From Candidatus Coatesiibacteriota bacterium (GTDB lineage Bacteria; RBG-13-66-14; B26-G2; JAUVZD01), in assembly GCA_030602715.1 (NCBI GenBank), contig JAUVZD010000007.1, positions 62,001 to 126,000 of the forward strand: a stretch of DNA of 64,000 nt. The letters are read 5' to 3'. A program made the translations under genes and the position numbers. The stretch's first letter is position 1. Each line of letters opens with the position of its first letter. Shown piece by piece: positions 51,197-58,759 of the stretch. The notes under the pieces were generated by a model. It did no database searches. It saw nothing but the letters and a program-made list of their open reading frames with translations, and was not told where the DNA came from.

Positions 51197-52315
51197 ATGA
51201 TCAAAAATTCCATATCCATAGTCATAGTCCCCCATTCCTCCGGCAAACCCTACACCATCTTCATCCACCGTTATCTACTCAGTTTCATCTTAGGCTTCTC
51301 CTGCCTGGCAATGCTGGGGCTTTTTGGCATAGTCTTCACCTACACCTTTGACTACATACAAATGCAAGAGGCGTTAGAGCCCACCAAATTGGAGATAGAC
51401 AACCTGATTGAGGAAAACCAGATGCTCAACGGTGCCATAACCCAAGCCTCCAATCATCAGGATGACCTTGCCCTACTGCTCAAGGAGGAGCGAGAACAAC
51501 ACGCCCAGGCGCTTATTGAGATACACGACCGATTGAAGATGCTGGAGAAATTTTATGCCGACCTGCGAATTATGGCTGGCTTCAAGCTAAATGTTGACGA
51601 CGCCAAGGCTCTGGACAAAGTCGCTCCCGACCCCCTGGACGCCCACGGTGGTCCGGTGGAAGTCATGGACAAGCACTTTGAGGGGATAAACCTTTTCTCC
51701 ATGCCCCAGGATGAATATCTCCAATTGATGCAAACCAAGGAAATGGCTTTAAAGAATGAGCTCAACGAGCACATCACCACCATCCAGAAGCTGAAGATGC
51801 TTCTGGAGAATAAAGCCTCTCTCGTTGACGATGTGCCTTCAATGGTGCCGGTGGAGGGCACCATAACCTCCTTGTTCGGTGAGGTGCGTAAGGGCGGCAC
51901 CCACGGCGGATTGGATATCGCTGCACCCGAGGGCACCCCCATCCACGCTCCGGCTGACGGCGTGGTGGTGAAGTCCGGTCCAAGTATGGGTTACGGGAGG
52001 GTCATCATCATTGACCACGGCAACGGCTACACCACCCGCTTCGGCCACCTGAGTGGGGAGACAGTCTCCTTGGGAGATCGGGTGGAGGAAGGGGATATCA
52101 TCGGCTATGTCGGCTCCACCGGCTGGGCTACCGGACCCCACCTGCACTACGAAGTGCGGTTAAACGGCGTCCCGGTTGACCCCATCAACTACCTGAATAC
52201 CAACCTACCCCAGGAACTGCTTGACAATACCGACAACCCCAACACCTCCATTGAGGAGCTACCGCCCTCCTATCCCTTTATAGGGGACCTACCACTACAG
52301 GAAAGTGACCTTTGA
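51197..52315 (+). CDS. M23-family metallopeptidase with membrane anchor and coiled coil
   Basis: 372 residues. One membrane helix (about 27-50) is followed by a coiled coil (PTKLEIDNLIEENQMLNGAI and on) and then the LytM/M23 domain. Its zinc motifs are THGGLDIA and HLHYEV, with FGHLS between them. All four residues typical of an active enzyme are visible. It probably cuts peptidoglycan cross-bridges or activates amidases during division. There is no clear ribosome site; TATAAT at 51117-51122 may be part of its promoter. Confidence 0.92.
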   Translation: MIKNSISIVIVPHSSGKPYTIFIHRYLLSFILGFSCLAMLGLFGIVFTYTFDYIQMQEALEPTKLEIDNLIEENQMLNGAITQASNHQDDLALLLKEEREQHAQALIEIHDRLKMLEKFYADLRIMAGFKLNVDDAKALDKVAPDPLDAHGGPVEVMDKHFEGINLFSMPQDEYLQLMQTKEMALKNELNEHITTIQKLKMLLENKASLVDDVPSMVPVEGTITSLFGEVRKGGTHGGLDIAAPEGTPIHAPADGVVVKSGPSMGYGRVIIIDHGNGYTTRFGHLSGETVSLGDRVEEGDIIGYVGSTGWATGPHLHYEVRLNGVPVDPINYLNTNLPQELLDNTDNPNTSIEELPPSYPFIGDLPLQESDL

Positions 52316-52394: not shown

Positions 52395-53738
52395 TCAGCG
52401 CAGTGAATTAGCCAGTTCCTCCACAATCTCAAGGACCCTGAAGATATTCTCGCCCAATATTCGCACCATCGGTTCTTTGCCAATATCTCCACGGTCATAG
52501 ATGAGTTGCGGTGGCTCACCACCCTCTAAACTCTGCGCTATCCATCCCAGGGTTGTCCCCTCCTTCCCCCTCTGCTGAGGGGGCTCATCCCTTCGCTCTA
52601 CAGCTTCCACTCGTAATCCCAGACCCCGAGCGGCATCAACGATCTCCTCACAGAAAGATATATTCATCCCCGCCCGTATGTTCGGCCAGCGTCTATTTAC
52701 CTCCAAAACCAGTCTAGCCACATGCGACGAACCCCCCAAGCAGGGCTGACCGGTAATCAGAGGACCCTGGGGACCCTTTACAATTCGGCTGGAAAGACCT
52801 ATCACCTCCTCCACACTATCAGCTCCACCCCAGGGTATGAAGGCTATATTTATCCCCACCTCGGGGACAAAATACTCAAATCCCTTGATCTGGGAGAGCT
52901 TCCTGAGGGCATTGGAAGTGATGTTCATAGCCTCCAGTGCGTTTTCAGCACGGGATTGGCACAAGCCGTGGCGCAGTAGCCAATCCTCTTCTCTGGAGGC
53001 TTGTAAAAGGTTATAGACAAAATACCGTGCTTTCAAAATGGATTTGAACATGTCCAATCCGAAGGTGGTATAGACGGCGATGGCGGAAGATAGAGCACAA
53101 CCCAGACCATGCCAAGTCCTTTCGCTCTCGGTTACCGCCTTGCGCTTCAACTCCCTGATCTGCCCTTTATAAAGAAAGATATCGCCAATTATATTATCCG
53201 GCCAGCGAACGCCGGTAGCTAAAAAATCGGTATTATACATCTCGGACAATTCATTTAGGGCGGAGACCACCTCGCTGGGAATGGAGACATCCTTGCCGGT
53301 TAGGATGGAAAGTTCTTTGGTGTTGGGGGTTACCAGAGTGGAGATGGGAAATAGCAGGTCGGCGACCTCCCTGGGGGAAGTGTCATCTATCAAGGCTCCC
53401 CCACTGCTGGCGGAGAATACCGGGTCGTTAATTATCGGTCCCTCATAACCTTGGAGCATATCATGAATCTTCTTTGCGTTATCAAGCGAGCCCACAGCAC
53501 CTATTTTGTATGCTCTGGGATTTAACTCCTGATGAACCGCCTCAAGCTCCTTCTGGAGGAGGTCCGTGGGTATGGGAAAGAGTTCCAATACACCGTTTTT
53601 ACTCGTCTGAGGCGCCAAGGCGGTCATAACCCCGGCGCCCTGGACACCGAGACAAGCAAATACCTTTATATCTGCCCCTATACCAGCCCCACCGCTTGGG
53701 TCATAGGCAGCAATGGAGATTACACCCTCAGGTTTCAT
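52395..53738 (-). CDS. Fused HMP/HMP-phosphate kinase and thiamine-phosphate synthase (ThiD-ThiN)
   Basis: 447 residues. The N-terminal 250 are a ribokinase-fold ThiD: IAAYDPSGGAGIGADIKVF, INDPVFSASSG and VTPNTKELSILTG. They phosphorylate hydroxymethylpyrimidine and its phosphate. The C-terminal 170 or so carry ThiN marks (FVPEVGINIAFIPWGGADSVEEV, GKEPMVRILGENIFRVLEIVEEL) and join the pyrimidine to the thiazole phosphate. The usual ThiD ending HGTGC appears as HGLGCALSSAIA. ATG 53738 is chosen because AGAGG lies six bases upstream. No TPP riboswitch is seen. Confidence 0.9.
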   Translation of the reverse strand: MKPEGVISIAAYDPSGGAGIGADIKVFACLGVQGAGVMTALAPQTSKNGVLELFPIPTDLLQKELEAVHQELNPRAYKIGAVGSLDNAKKIHDMLQGYEGPIINDPVFSASSGGALIDDTSPREVADLLFPISTLVTPNTKELSILTGKDVSIPSEVVSALNELSEMYNTDFLATGVRWPDNIIGDIFLYKGQIRELKRKAVTESERTWHGLGCALSSAIAVYTTFGLDMFKSILKARYFVYNLLQASREEDWLLRHGLCQSRAENALEAMNITSNALRKLSQIKGFEYFVPEVGINIAFIPWGGADSVEEVIGLSSRIVKGPQGPLITGQPCLGGSSHVARLVLEVNRRWPNIRAGMNISFCEEIVDAARGLGLRVEAVERRDEPPQQRGKEGTTLGWIAQSLEGGEPPQLIYDRGDIGKEPMVRILGENIFRVLEIVEELANSLR

Positions 53739-53765
53739 ATCCAACCTCTGAAGACACTGCAACAG

Positions 53766-53785
53766 AAAAGGGGCGCTCTCGCCCC
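53766..53785 (-). terminator. Terminator of the exbB-agmX operon
   Basis: Minus strand GGGGCG, loop AGAG, CGCCCC, then TTTTCTG. It separates the operon from thiD-thiN. Confidence 0.75.
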
Positions 53786-53840: not shown

Positions 53841-55358
53841 CTAAGCTGCTGAGAAGAAGATGAAAGGATAAACAATTATAGTATCACCACTGGATATGGT
53901 GGGGAAGTTCCAACCATAGACTACAGAGACTACCTCACTCTCCATGGTGGGATTATTCATAGTTGACGATATAAGGTAACAGTTGGAAACTCGTCCGGAG
54001 GCGGAGATGGTAAAGCTGACCACAATCTTTCCCTGAAGCGTTGGGTTTGTCTTAAGGTATTTCTTGTAGATGTATTCTAAACCTACTTTATGCCTTTCTA
54101 TTACCTCCCGAATGATGACAGAGGAGCGGTTAGCATCAGCGGAACCTTCGCCGGAGATACTGCTGGGTGATGTGAGGGAGACACCTCCACTAACCTCCAT
54201 CTCAAAACCCACCCCTCCCCCTCCCCCAGAGCCCAGCATGGAGATCAGATCGCCCAGACCACTGCCACCTCCACCACCCAAACCCAAGCCACCACCTCCA
54301 CCACCAATGGAAGAGTAACCACCGGTCTTCAAACCCCCGATACCGCCGATGATTCCATCAAAATCACCAGCACCTCCCCCACCGAGGATATCTACTACAC
54401 CACCGCCAGGACCATCAGAGGTTATCAATCCCAAAACTCCGTAACCCAGAGGTCCTTCGCCCAGACCGGCTCCACCTGGACCATGCCCCCCACCTGAGCC
54501 TCCACCACCAGCTCCTTCGCCCTCGCCCACACCGAAGCCCGTTCCTTCACCGTCGGGGATATCCGCAAACATATCCTCATCCGTCACCAGCTCAGCAATT
54601 CTCCCGGTAATATCCAGTATGTCCTCCTCCTCCCTCTCGGGGAGATGCAGATAAAATGCTGACGCCATGAAAAGCCCGCATAGAATGGCGATTGAGATGA
54701 AAGAAAGTATGAAGTTACGGTCATCGTGATATTCAGACATTTCCCGGCGATATTGGGGCTCCTCCAGCTTTCCGTCTTTGAACAGCTCACTAATGGGTAA
54801 AGGTTCACCCCGCACCAGCCTTCTCTCCGGTTTTTCCGTGGATATTTGCGGTTCTTGAGCGGGCTCAGCTTCCACGTCTGCAGTAACGACATCTTCCACA
54901 CCTCTACTCATTGCCCGTTCCCGTAAAGTCTCCTCTAGTATATTCTTCTCCCCTACGCTTACTTCCCGCTCAGGGGCAAAGTCAGTCGGCCAATCCTCCC
55001 CCAGCGCCCTGTCAGCCCGCATCCACTTACCCCGGTAAAAAACTGAGTCGCCGGCTTCAACCCGCCCTATTTTTACCAAGCCGACTATCTCCTCCCGGGT
55101 GATAGGACCAAGGTTTTTCTCTCCCGCCCGCAAGTAGAAGAAATCCTCACCACCGGTGCCAGCTTTCCTCAATTCATACTGTTCAATAAGCGTAACCAGC
55201 GAGGAAACCACCCCCACCGAAACCCATCTCTTCTGCTGAGGAGACCAGATATAGTGGTTTCTCAACACTTGACCTTCCAGTGCCTGTTGTTTAACCTCTT
55301 CTACGGTCATCGGCCCGAATCTCTCCGAGCCCTTTGCTATGTATATGCCAGCACTCAT
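53841..55358 (-). CDS. AgmX/PglI-type TonB-like protein with two N-terminal GYF-like domains
   Basis: 505 residues. Two GYF_2-like domains (about 5-65 with RFGPMTVEEVKQQALEGQV, and 72-130 with NLGPITREEIVGLVKIGRV) lie in the cytoplasm. After a charged linker one membrane helix follows (about 219-241). A very Gly-rich periplasmic stretch (about 275-390) contains GVLGLITSDG and VVDILGGGGAGD. The C-terminal 95 residues (SSVIIREVIERHKVGLEYIYKKYLKTNP... GKIVVSFTISASGRVSNCYLISSTM) match the AgmX/PglI C-terminal domain, a TonB-like fold. It is last in the ExbBDD operon and would couple inner-membrane proton flow to the outer envelope, with the GYF domains reading a cytoplasmic proline-rich partner. 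GYF_2 function in bacteria is unproven. Confidence 0.8.
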   Translation of the reverse strand: MSAGIYIAKGSERFGPMTVEEVKQQALEGQVLRNHYIWSPQQKRWVSVGVVSSLVTLIEQYELRKAGTGGEDFFYLRAGEKNLGPITREEIVGLVKIGRVEAGDSVFYRGKWMRADRALGEDWPTDFAPEREVSVGEKNILEETLRERAMSRGVEDVVTADVEAEPAQEPQISTEKPERRLVRGEPLPISELFKDGKLEEPQYRREMSEYHDDRNFILSFISIAILCGLFMASAFYLHLPEREEEDILDITGRIAELVTDEDMFADIPDGEGTGFGVGEGEGAGGGGSGGGHGPGGAGLGEGPLGYGVLGLITSDGPGGGVVDILGGGGAGDFDGIIGGIGGLKTGGYSSIGGGGGGLGLGGGGGSGLGDLISMLGSGGGGGVGFEMEVSGGVSLTSPSSISGEGSADANRSSVIIREVIERHKVGLEYIYKKYLKTNPTLQGKIVVSFTISASGRVSNCYLISSTMNNPTMESEVVSVVYGWNFPTISSGDTIIVYPFIFFSAA

Positions 55359-55460
55359 AAAGAGAAAAATTCCTTGCAGAAGCTAGTTCACTTAATAATA
55401 CTTAATCTCACCCTTCTGCAGGTCAGCACTTAATCCTTAGGGCGAATTTTCAGACCATCA

Positions 55461-56840
55461 CTAGGTTTTTATGAACACAAAGGGATAGACTACAGTTACC
55501 TCTCCACCGGAAACGGCTGGGAATTTCCAACCGTAGATACGGCTGGCTATTTGCGATTCCATCTCCGGGCAGTTCATGGTGGAGGAAGAGACATAAGCGT
55601 TGGTGACTATTCCCTGAGCGTTGATTGAAAAAGTAACCACTACCTTTCCACTTAGGTTAGGATTCTTCTTTAGTTGGGCATTATACACCGATTGCAAGCC
55701 AGCCATGTGGGCGGAGATCACATTGGAGATAGCCGAAGAGCTACGACCGGATTCCCCTTCTGCAGTTCCACTAATACTTTGAGGACCGGAAAGGGTTACC
55801 ATCCCCACAGTTTCCAACTCACTGGTATCAAACCCACCACCACCACCGCCACCCAACAATGCCGCCAGGTCCATTCCACCGGGACCGCCCAGACCTCCGA
55901 GACCGAGACCCCCACCCCCACCCAACCCCCCACCGGAACCGCTGGTAGTCAGACCGCCGATACCTCCAAGGATCGCATCTATATCACCAGCTCCACCTCC
56001 ACCTCCAAGTATATCAACCACTGAGGGACCTCCGGAGGGTCCTTCGGTGGTTAAAAGCCCAAGCAAACCGGTGCCGTATACTCCGGGTCCATCATCAGTC
56101 CCCGGTCCATAGTTTGTCCCTCCTCCCCCTCCACCGCCAGGACCGATTGCCTCACCTTCTCCCTCGCCGACACCCATCATACTCTCCTCCAAATCCTCAA
56201 CATTTATCAACTCAGCGATTACCTCAGGTATATTCACAATCCTTAGCGAACCTCCCATTGGACCGACTTTGAAAGCGAATATCAAGAAGAAAACGGAAAG
56301 GGTGAGAGTGCCCAGGAATAGATAGGTGAAGTGACGGTCCTCCTCATCCATGGTGCTGGTTAAGCCCCTGCGGGTGGGCATAATCTCGGCTATGGAGACC
56401 GGCTCCGGCGGTGCCGGTGGGGATATGTAGCCAAATCTCAAGGTCAGTTCGCCAAATTGAAGCTCTCCCTCCTTCCCTTCCACCATCTCCAGTTGATATA
56501 CACCATCCTTGCGGGGAAGGAGCCCCTGAATGATCAAGGTGCGGAAATCTACATCCGAGCCCATGTAACTGACCTTGCCGGTCATCTGCTCGGTCATATT
56601 GAGTAGATAGCGGTCGGGTCCGGTCTTCTCCAGTAGGGAAAAAGCCTCACTTCCCTGCCAATCGTAATAGACAATATCGTTATCAGCGCCCCGCCCGATG
56701 GTTATCGTCTCGTCAGGGAAGAAGGTCCTCAACTTCTTCCCGTTGCGAAGTATCGTCAATCCTAACTTGCGAGGCTCAGCCGTTGCCACCCCTCCGCCGT
56801 CTATAGTGCCATCCGCCCTCTTCTTTTTTGCTAATGGCAT
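55461..56840 (-). CDS. AgmX/PglI-type TonB-like protein with N-terminal FHA-like domain
   Basis: 459 residues. Residues about 27-130 resemble an FHA domain: LRNGKKLRTFFPDETITIGRGADNDIVYYDW. This would bind phosphothreonine peptides in the cytoplasm, although the later FHA residues are not clear. One membrane helix (about 171-192) is followed by a Gly-rich linker with GLLGLLTTEG, VVDILGGGG and DIDAILGGIGGL. The C-terminal domain (SSAISNVISAHMAGLQSVYNAQLKKNPNLSGKVVVTF...) is homologous to that of its downstream neighbour. The shared linker and end show a duplication, with different cytoplasmic heads. GGGGAGG lies before the ATG. Confidence 0.8.
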   Translation of the reverse strand: MPLAKKKRADGTIDGGGVATAEPRKLGLTILRNGKKLRTFFPDETITIGRGADNDIVYYDWQGSEAFSLLEKTGPDRYLLNMTEQMTGKVSYMGSDVDFRTLIIQGLLPRKDGVYQLEMVEGKEGELQFGELTLRFGYISPPAPPEPVSIAEIMPTRRGLTSTMDEEDRHFTYLFLGTLTLSVFFLIFAFKVGPMGGSLRIVNIPEVIAELINVEDLEESMMGVGEGEGEAIGPGGGGGGGTNYGPGTDDGPGVYGTGLLGLLTTEGPSGGPSVVDILGGGGGAGDIDAILGGIGGLTTSGSGGGLGGGGGLGLGGLGGPGGMDLAALLGGGGGGGFDTSELETVGMVTLSGPQSISGTAEGESGRSSSAISNVISAHMAGLQSVYNAQLKKNPNLSGKVVVTFSINAQGIVTNAYVSSSTMNCPEMESQIASRIYGWKFPAVSGGEVTVVYPFVFIKT

Positions 56841-56893
56841 TTATCATACCTCCCCAGGTCCAAAATCGCAAACCGAGGCAAACCCCAAAATGG

Positions 56894-57439
56894 CTATTGT
56901 TTTCTCAAAACAGCAAGAGCAATATTGCCATACTTGGAGCGACCACAGGTGTACATCACCCTGGTTAATAGGTCAAAGGTGATCAGCTTATCACCCTGTA
57001 TGGTTACCTCTCCCTTGAAGGGTCGGGTGGGGTCTTGCTCAGCAATAGCCTCCTTGATCCTGCGAATACGGGTCATCTCCACCAGCAGGTTATCTATGAC
57101 CAAATCCTGGTCGTTCAGGGCGTCCTCCGTGGTGCAAACCGCTGACCCCTCCACCAGTATATGTTTATTTGTTACCGCAACAATAACCGACTGAACCGGA
57201 TTCTTGATGGATTCGGAGGCAGGTAGCTTGAGGTCGGGAGCCACGGACATAATATCCCCCTCTGCGGAGTAGGTCATAAACAGGAAGACGACCAGAATAA
57301 CGAAGGTGTCTATCAATGAGACCAACAGAATTCGTACTTCCTTCGTCCGCTCCTCCATTATCCGTTCTTTTATCCGCCCAGTCTGTTGCCCACGCCGCCC
57401 CTTCGCAGCTGCGCGGGTAGGTTTTTTAGCTTGAGCCAA
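56894..57439 (-). CDS. ExbD/TolR-family protein, second of two
   Basis: 181 residues. A basic N-terminus is followed by one membrane helix (RILLVSLIDTFVILVVFLFMTYS) with the conserved Asp that carries protons. A periplasmic domain follows. The longer basic leader (about 45 residues) and the extended periplasmic part set it apart from the first ExbD. The start is TTG at 57437-57439 with GGAGG upstream. Confidence 0.88.
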   Translation of the reverse strand: MAQAKKPTRAAAKGRRGQQTGRIKERIMEERTKEVRILLVSLIDTFVILVVFLFMTYSAEGDIMSVAPDLKLPASESIKNPVQSVIVAVTNKHILVEGSAVCTTEDALNDQDLVIDNLLVEMTRIRRIKEAIAEQDPTRPFKGEVTIQGDKLITFDLLTRVMYTCGRSKYGNIALAVLRKQ

Positions 57440-57494
57440 CGAACCCCACCTCCTTAACTATTGCTGGTCCACGCCGGTTGCCCTCAACTTCCGA

Positions 57495-57974
57495 TTAGGT
57501 GATCTTCGGCGCCAGGGCGATCTCCGGCAGGTCTTTCGCCAAACAACAATCCATGGTCTTGATTATGTCCTCGTACATTATCTGTTGTTCCGCCGCAATG
57601 ATTACACTGGTCTGACTGGGAAACTCATCCTTTATCTGCTCTAACTGCCCCGACAAACCATCCCAATCATACTCCCCACCTCGTTTGGGAATCGGCGGAA
57701 GAATTGCACCCGAACCCCCTACAATAAAACCTTGGTCAGTTATTATCACCGTGAGGTTAAGCTGTTGCTTTTTCTCCTCCTCTAATTCGGTCCCTTCGCC
57801 TGCGCCAGCAGCGGTAGGAAGATTGATCTCAATGATCGACGTCTGCAGAATACAGGCAGTCATCAATAGAAAGACCAAAAGCACAGCCATTATGTCAATG
57901 AAAGGAACTAGCTCTAATTCCTCATCAACCCTCTGCTTCTTCCTCCTTACTTTCCCTGAGACCGGATATGCCAT
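57495..57974 (-). CDS. ExbD/TolR-family protein, first of two
   Basis: 159 residues. RRKKQRVDEELELVPFIDIMAVLLVFLLMTACIL gives the one-helix anchor with the proton-carrying Asp. A short periplasmic domain ends with TSVIIAAEQQIMYEDIIKTMD, the standard ExbD ending. It starts seven bases after the exbB-like gene and is translated with it. Confidence 0.92.
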   Translation of the reverse strand: MAYPVSGKVRRKKQRVDEELELVPFIDIMAVLLVFLLMTACILQTSIIEINLPTAAGAGEGTELEEEKKQQLNLTVIITDQGFIVGGSGAILPPIPKRGGEYDWDGLSGQLEQIKDEFPSQTSVIIAAEQQIMYEDIIKTMDCCLAKDLPEIALAPKIT

Positions 57975-57981
57975 CGCCTAA

Positions 57982-58614
57982 CTACCTCCGCACTTCTTCC
58001 AGAGTGTTCAATATCTTTACCACACTGGAGTCTATGTCAGCCATTATCTTGTTTGAACGACCCACCAAAAAACCGTGGAAGACTATCGCAGCGATAGCTA
58101 CAAATAGCCCAAAGGCAGTGCAGTGCATAGCTTCGGAGATGCCTGCGGAGAGGATGGCGGTCTTCTCTGCGGCACTGACCCCAGCCAAGGAACCGAAACA
58201 GGCGATCAGACCGGAGATGGTTCCCAAAAGACCAAGTAGAACCGCCACATTAGCCAGCATACCCAAATAAGGGATGCGTCGGTCAAGTCTCGGAATCTCC
58301 ACCAGACTGACCTCGTCGGTCACCTGCTGTATGTCCTCCTCACCCTCCATAAAAGCCTGCAAAGCTGATTTTACGATGCGGGTCAGGGGTGTATCGTGCC
58401 TATTACACAGGTTGATAGCACCATTGATGTCCCGCTTCTTTATCAGCTTTAAACATTCCAGGGTGAAAGGCTCCGCTTTGATGTTGGACTTTATGGCAAC
58501 ATACCATATCCGCTCAATGATGATACTAAAGGCAAAGACCATAGTCGCCAAAATGAGATGCATCCCCCACTTCCCGGCCATATACCATCCAGCTACACCC
58601 TGTAACCATTCCAT
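57982..58614 (-). CDS. MotA/TolQ/ExbB-family proton channel protein
   Basis: 210 residues with three membrane helices (about 16-38, 113-135 and 156-180). The central RLDRRIPYLGMLANVAVLLGLLGTISGLI and the final GISEAMHCTAFGLFVAIAAIVFHGFLVGR are the family signature, with conserved Pro, Gly and Thr. It forms the proton path with the ExbD proteins. AGGAGG lies before the ATG. It is first in the operon. Confidence 0.95.
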   Translation of the reverse strand: MEWLQGVAGWYMAGKWGMHLILATMVFAFSIIIERIWYVAIKSNIKAEPFTLECLKLIKKRDINGAINLCNRHDTPLTRIVKSALQAFMEGEEDIQQVTDEVSLVEIPRLDRRIPYLGMLANVAVLLGLLGTISGLIACFGSLAGVSAAEKTAILSAGISEAMHCTAFGLFVAIAAIVFHGFLVGRSNKIMADIDSSVVKILNTLEEVRR

Positions 58615-58730: not shown

Positions 58731-58759
58731 AACATACCACGAAAGGGTTATTTTGTCAA
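58731..58759 (-). promoter_or_regulatory. Promoter of the exbB-agmX operon
   Basis: Minus strand TTGACA (58754-58759), 17 bases, TATGTT (58731-58736). The start near 58724 leaves a leader of 110 bases. Confidence 0.65.

Follow-up and report, generated by a model that had tools for sequence, protein, structure and literature searches.

A five-gene operon encoding an ExbB, two ExbD and two AgmX/PglI-tailed proteins, one with an FHA-like and the other with a GYF head, occupies positions 53,841 to 58,614 of a stretch of 64,000 nucleotides (the window) from a Candidatus Coatesiibacteriota bacterium (assembly GCA_030602715.1, contig JAUVZD010000007.1). The operon is confirmed and, with a probability of about 0.7, it encodes the inner-membrane part of an Agl–Glt/Nfs-type machine that is self-contained and moves an adhesin or polymer at the cell surface. 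In Myxococcus xanthus, AglRQS is the motor and there are two transducers: GltG, which has FHA and TonB domains and binds AglR, and GltJ, also named AgmX (PMC3169522, PMC5349195). The assignment to this type is supported by the five-protein architecture and its order in eight further genomes, a contiguous gene cluster, a GltF-like match, FHA and GYF profiles that match GltG and GltJ, an MglA-type GTPase in 14/14 genomes of the phylum searched, and the binding of both GltG and NfsG by AglR in M. xanthus (PMC3169522, PMC3858216). The features of the operon are the following.

57982..58614, minus strand: ExbB/TolQ/AglR-type motor protein, 210 amino acids, three hydrophobic helices (Pfam MotA_ExbB, 7e-25).
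57495..57974, minus strand: ExbD/TolR/AglQ-type protein 1, 159 amino acids, membrane Asp27 in PFIDIM (Pfam ExbD, 5e-20; alignment).
56894..57439, minus strand: ExbD/TolR/AglS-type protein 2, 181 amino acids, TTG start, membrane Asp in VSLIDTF (Pfam ExbD, 2e-10; alignment).
55461..56840, minus strand: GltG-type transducer with FHA-like head, one transmembrane helix, Gly-rich periplasmic linker and TonB-like AgmX/PglI tail (NF033768, 97 bits).
56418..56771, minus strand: FHA-like cytoplasmic head, residues 24-141 (AlphaFold model, pLDDT 72.6; VIA structure comparison; alignment).
55473..55742, minus strand: AgmX/PglI (TonB-like) C-terminal domain of the FHA partner (NF033768, 4.6e-28).
53841..55358, minus strand: GYF-headed transducer with two GYF units, one transmembrane helix, Gly-rich linker and TonB-like AgmX/PglI tail (GYF_2, 2.9e-11; NF033768, 89 bits).
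55200..55343, minus strand: GYF unit 1, residues 6-53 (Pfam GYF_2; fold match to the GltJ GYF domain, 7z3c).
55002..55139, minus strand: GYF unit 2, residues 74-119 (same element order in the model; below the Pfam threshold in the window protein).
53856..54116, minus strand: AgmX/PglI (TonB-like) C-terminal domain of the GYF partner (NF033768, 1.6e-25).
58731..58759, minus strand: promoter-like site TTGACA-17-TATGTT upstream of ExbB (pattern scan; weak evidence).
53770..53785, minus strand: terminator-like hairpin GGGGCG-AGAG-CGCCCC followed by TTTT, after the GYF gene (pattern scan; six G-C pairs).

The five open reading frames lie on one strand at the positions given by an earlier note on this DNA, separated from ExbB to the GYF gene by 7, 55, 53 and 102 bp, and domain searches identify them as ExbB, ExbD, ExbD and two proteins with an AgmX/PglI tail. 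Both partners score well above the curated cut-off of NF033768, the AgmX/PglI C-terminal domain model (40 bits), and each has one transmembrane helix and a periplasmic arm that is 42-47% Gly. As the note had described, they have common linker motifs (GLLGLLTT or GVLGLITS, and VVDILGGGG) and different N-terminal domains, and its view of an energised envelope machine of the AgmX/PglI type with two distinct cytoplasmic heads is upheld. The strong promoter and single terminator that it assigned to the operon stand only in part: the promoter-like site matches 10/12 positions and the hairpin is plausible, but ten such promoter matches were found against 8.6 expected in shuffled DNA and the hairpin total is at chance level.

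The order ExbB-ExbD-ExbD-FHA-GYF recurs in eight further genomes (G001-G006, G010 and G011), all from the uncultured phylum Ca. Coatesbacteria and belonging to two of its classes, a conservation in relatives that the note had proposed to look for. In another genome (G008) an ExbD gene precedes the FHA gene, but the second gene for an AgmX-tailed protein is some 8 kb distant and oppositely oriented. Across a sample of 386 genomes, many loci from many phyla carry two ExbD genes followed by an FHA-type AgmX protein, while none of the 23 such loci read outside the phylum has a GYF head. Two variants were observed among the motor genes: a single open reading frame of G011 (L118:12073-13119) matches both ExbB and the first ExbD, either as a fusion or through a sequencing error, and the first ExbD of the sister-class genome G010 (L041:6566-7174) carries Gly where the proton-carrying Asp would be expected, a residue that its second ExbD retains.

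In four genomes (G002, G004, G006 and G011) the cluster is contiguous and reads barrel-TPR-TPR-GltF-like-ExbB-ExbD-ExbD-FHA-GYF, the upstream part consisting, in order, of a YjbH-like outer-membrane barrel, a secreted TPR protein, a TPR lipoprotein and a small protein that is also secreted. The genome of the window has the barrel, three TPR proteins and the small GltF-like protein together on contig C11, apart from the motor operon, an outer-membrane and periplasmic half that the note had missed. The small protein has the GltF/CglF motif vI.fe.v.IEGrl.rP....I.R, and one representative (L035) matches the NCBIfam CglF model at E = 2e-4 and 21 bits (cut-off 90). Moreover, hhalign gives 96% for the small protein against a GltF-like set that includes the true GltF of the myxobacterium G041, a partly circular comparison in that some members were recruited by the small-protein profile itself, whereas the NCBIfam match is free of this circularity. 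The same gene order without the GYF gene is present in a genome of an unrelated phylum (G043), in which the barrel occurs in 4/4 genomes examined, indicating that GltF-like proteins reach beyond the Deltaproteobacteria. In Luciano et al. (2011), gltJ was confined to Myxococcales, and gltA, gltB and gltF to that order plus Bdellovibrionales (PMC3169522), a range that the GltF-like protein found here extends.

Agl–Glt (AglRQS, GltA-K) and the Coatesbacteria system have in common an ExbB with two ExbD, FHA- and GYF-headed TonB-like transducers, a GltF-like protein and an MglA in the genome, with the TPR proteins and the barrel as putative further counterparts, although the genes form one or two clusters in Coatesbacteria and three in M. 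xanthus. The note's suggestion that both heads in one motor operon may be undescribed is over-stated, as AglRQS with GltG (FHA) and GltJ (GYF) comprises the same parts in separate loci; the pairing is not new in kind, both heads being known from M. xanthus. What is new is that the genes form a single locus, that GltF-like proteins reach so far, and that the GYF transducer is probably of independent origin. AglRQS also powers Nfs, which spreads the spore-coat polymer (PMC3858216). NfsA-H are paralogues of GltA-H that move a surface polymer on the AglRQS motor, with a similar core order according to the literature. The Nfs motor comes from a separate locus, whereas the Coatesbacteria motor genes sit between the GltF-like and GltG-type genes. 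Nfs is not known to have a GYF partner. In the survey of Luciano et al. (2011), the Group B core clusters (gltC/D/E/G with aglRQS; Gammaproteobacteria, Fibrobacteres, Geobacter) also combine motor, TPR and GltG in a single region; the system described here, in phyla that the survey did not include, adds the GltF-like protein, the barrel and the GYF partner.

The assignment of the GYF head is secure. The top PDB match of the GYF profile is AgmX/GltJ (7z3c), followed by TonB, and this GYF domain of the M. xanthus GltJ is the best bacterial solved match of the head in both sequence and fold; two GYF_2 stretches are recognised in the orthologues L037 and L034, and the head profile matches GltJ (4e-6). 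The GltJ of G041 combines Zn_ribbon_4 with GYF_2, whereas the window protein begins directly with GYF_2, with no zinc ribbon ahead of it; it also has a second GYF unit and a tail that does not group with GltJ. Specifically, in tail trees the GYF tails of the window's class adjoin the FHA tails of the same class, with supports of 87/77 and 62/82 that are not strong, and approximately unbiased (AU) tests reject a clade of GltJ with the class GYF tails (p = 0.016) or with all GYF tails (p = 0.006), on about 105 columns and with GltJ as a long branch. Moreover, within each genome the GYF profile finds its best match in the linker and tail of the FHA partner. Trees, AU tests and this similarity together suggest that the GYF partner arose as a head-swapped duplicate of its FHA neighbour and is not an orthologue of GltJ. 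For the sister-class GYF protein, a clade of all GYF tails is not rejected (p = 0.21) and one of all FHA tails is (p = 0.014), so that its history may be separate from that of the window's class. A GYF head and an AgmX tail in one profile match were not found outside the phylum in the 386-genome sample, nor at a strict threshold among 193 genomes from the phylum of the myxobacteria, where GltJ itself falls below the threshold and absence is therefore unproven. A third AgmX-tailed protein of the window's genome (contig C4, L047:9670-10842, minus strand) has a weak GYF_2 head (3e-5) and a coiled region, and its gene adjoins that of a 2225-amino-acid protein weakly similar to a model of T9SS-dependent metalloproteases.

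The models also give the FHA-like and GYF folds that the note had expected at the two N-termini. A Pfam search of the window FHA-type protein gave no FHA match and the FHA-head profile matched none of the PDB sequences; the FHA call is made because of the fold, a sister-class match and the match of the head profile to GltG. The top rows of the VIA comparison are nearly all FHA, with moderate Z scores of 4.5-6.2 over 82-91 residues (best 6.2 over 84), the OdhI FHA model recognises the N-terminus of the orthologue from the sister class, and the Coatesbacteria head profile finds in G041 the Pfam FHA-bearing GltG (3e-10) and a GltG paralogue (6e-25). Foldseek on both head models returned weak E-values, and of the structural searches only the VIA comparison and the GltJ GYF match are informative. 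The note had further proposed a phosphopeptide signal as the input through the FHA head. Phosphothreonine binding that turns the motor on would be compatible with the fold, with the GR and SRxH retained in myxobacterial GltG and with the full residue set of another lineage. In the alignment, however, the phosphothreonine-reading residues GR, SxxH and NG are not conserved in Coatesbacteria: no protein but that of the window has the Arg of GR, the SxxH motif is disrupted and NG is lost, and these heads have a 20-residue insertion in common with a degenerate myxobacterial paralogue. Phosphopeptide input is thus quite unlikely, and the head would most likely be a protein-docking fold. Another cytoplasmic input on such a tail is seen in a 901-amino-acid protein of G048 (L053:9966-12671), in which a Ser/Thr protein kinase domain and TPR are joined to an AgmX/TonB-like tail.

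Two other functions can be envisaged for the whole system. An ordinary TonB- or Tol-like apparatus with two alternative TonB proteins, energising uptake or outer-membrane constriction, would account for the ExbB and ExbD, the weak TonB_C similarity of the tails in Pfam and the PDB matches to E. coli TonB, as TonB-ExbB-ExbD and TolQRA-Pal belong to the same motor superfamily and have TonB_C-like tails. It is nonetheless very unlikely, given that the operon proteins miss the TonB, ExbB, TolQ and TolR equivalog cut-offs, the tails fit the AgmX/PglI model rather than TonB, and the neighbours are a barrel, TPR proteins and a GltF-like protein in an order found again in another phylum; Coatesbacteria have two cytoplasmically headed transducers with Gly-rich, not Pro-rich or helical, arms and no receptor or Pal. 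TonB and TolA are not known to have cytoplasmic heads, which also counts against such a system. A true gliding engine, in which the operon and the C11 cluster drive surface movement under MglA control, has the same core parts as Agl–Glt in its favour, as well as an MglA in all 14 genomes of the phylum searched that is about 69% identical to a myxobacterial MglA encoded next to a GltG paralogue. It is unlikely, though, since GltE and GltH/CglE were not found in the phylum, the related Agl–Nfs spreads its polymer without gliding, and Wzz-/Wzy-like genes after the cluster in one genus better fit polysaccharide handling. In this genus (g3; L119, L120, L121) the cluster is preceded by a MurA-like gene, identified by inspection of its N-terminus, and followed by Wzz-like genes and, in the member examined (L037), by Wzy_C/TPR genes, an arrangement that hints at a surface polysaccharide cargo.

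Several results also weigh against an Agl–Glt/Nfs-type machine. The operon proteins do not reach the GltG and GltJ equivalog cut-offs of NCBIfam, and the GltG model matches only the linker and tail of the FHA partner, at 95 bits against a cut-off of 650. The barrel, in the same position, is a candidate GltA/GltB counterpart whose profile has no match in G041, and the TPR proteins are at corresponding positions, yet their GltC match (7e-8) is generic and YbgF scores better. Moreover, the GltE family has no true match in the phylum and the GltH/CglE model (NF033755) matches the myxobacterium only. Nearly all genomes, 12/14 controls among them, gave TPR noise in the GltE search, and the myxobacterial match alone is real. 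MglA is widespread and non-specific; being so common, its presence is only permissive.

In an Agl–Glt/Nfs-type machine, an ExbB5-ExbD2 complex resembling AglR/Q/S would draw on the proton gradient to actuate both single-helix TonB-like transducers, whose Gly-rich arms would cross the cell wall so that the tails may cyclically touch the GltF-like protein, the TPR scaffold proteins and the barrel encoded at the second locus of the same genome. The predicted outcome is a surface adhesin or polymer pushed along the cell. A comparison of GltF with a TonB-box partner of GltG/GltJ has been made (PMC9389320). By analogy with GltJ, the tandem GYF head could be a regulated cytoplasmic contact, for which the note had suggested a proline-rich partner. 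The cytoplasmic part of GltJ senses MglA-GTP.

Two neighbouring genes recur. Near the GYF gene, the window (51197-52315, plus strand) and the sister class (L041:1492-2511 and L118:17205-18224) encode M23-like peptidases whose N-termini are alike; Pfam confirms the assignment for L041 only, and the peptidase may be a cell-wall partner. The gene directly downstream of the operon (52395-53762, minus strand) has a ThiD-ThiN fusion as its L034 orthologue, and is unrelated to the motor although its position is conserved.

The system can be regarded as a complete single-locus relative of the Myxococcus gliding and spore-coat machinery in a deep uncultured phylum. The barrel, TPR and GltF-like proteins, ExbB-ExbD-ExbD and the FHA transducer are suggested to be the ancestral parts, and the GYF transducer a later addition. 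It is tentatively proposed, as a possibility short of even odds, that an Agl-type motor acquired a GYF-headed transducer on two independent occasions, once in Coatesbacteria, where the FHA partner was duplicated and its head exchanged, and once in Myxococcota (GltJ), and that the contiguous barrel-TPR-GltF-AglRQS-GltG machine predates the myxobacterial gliding apparatus, contrary to the published late Deltaproteobacteria origin of gltA, gltB, gltF and gltJ. Lastly, the cluster offers a compact gene set for reconstituting the transfer of proton-motor force across the cell wall.

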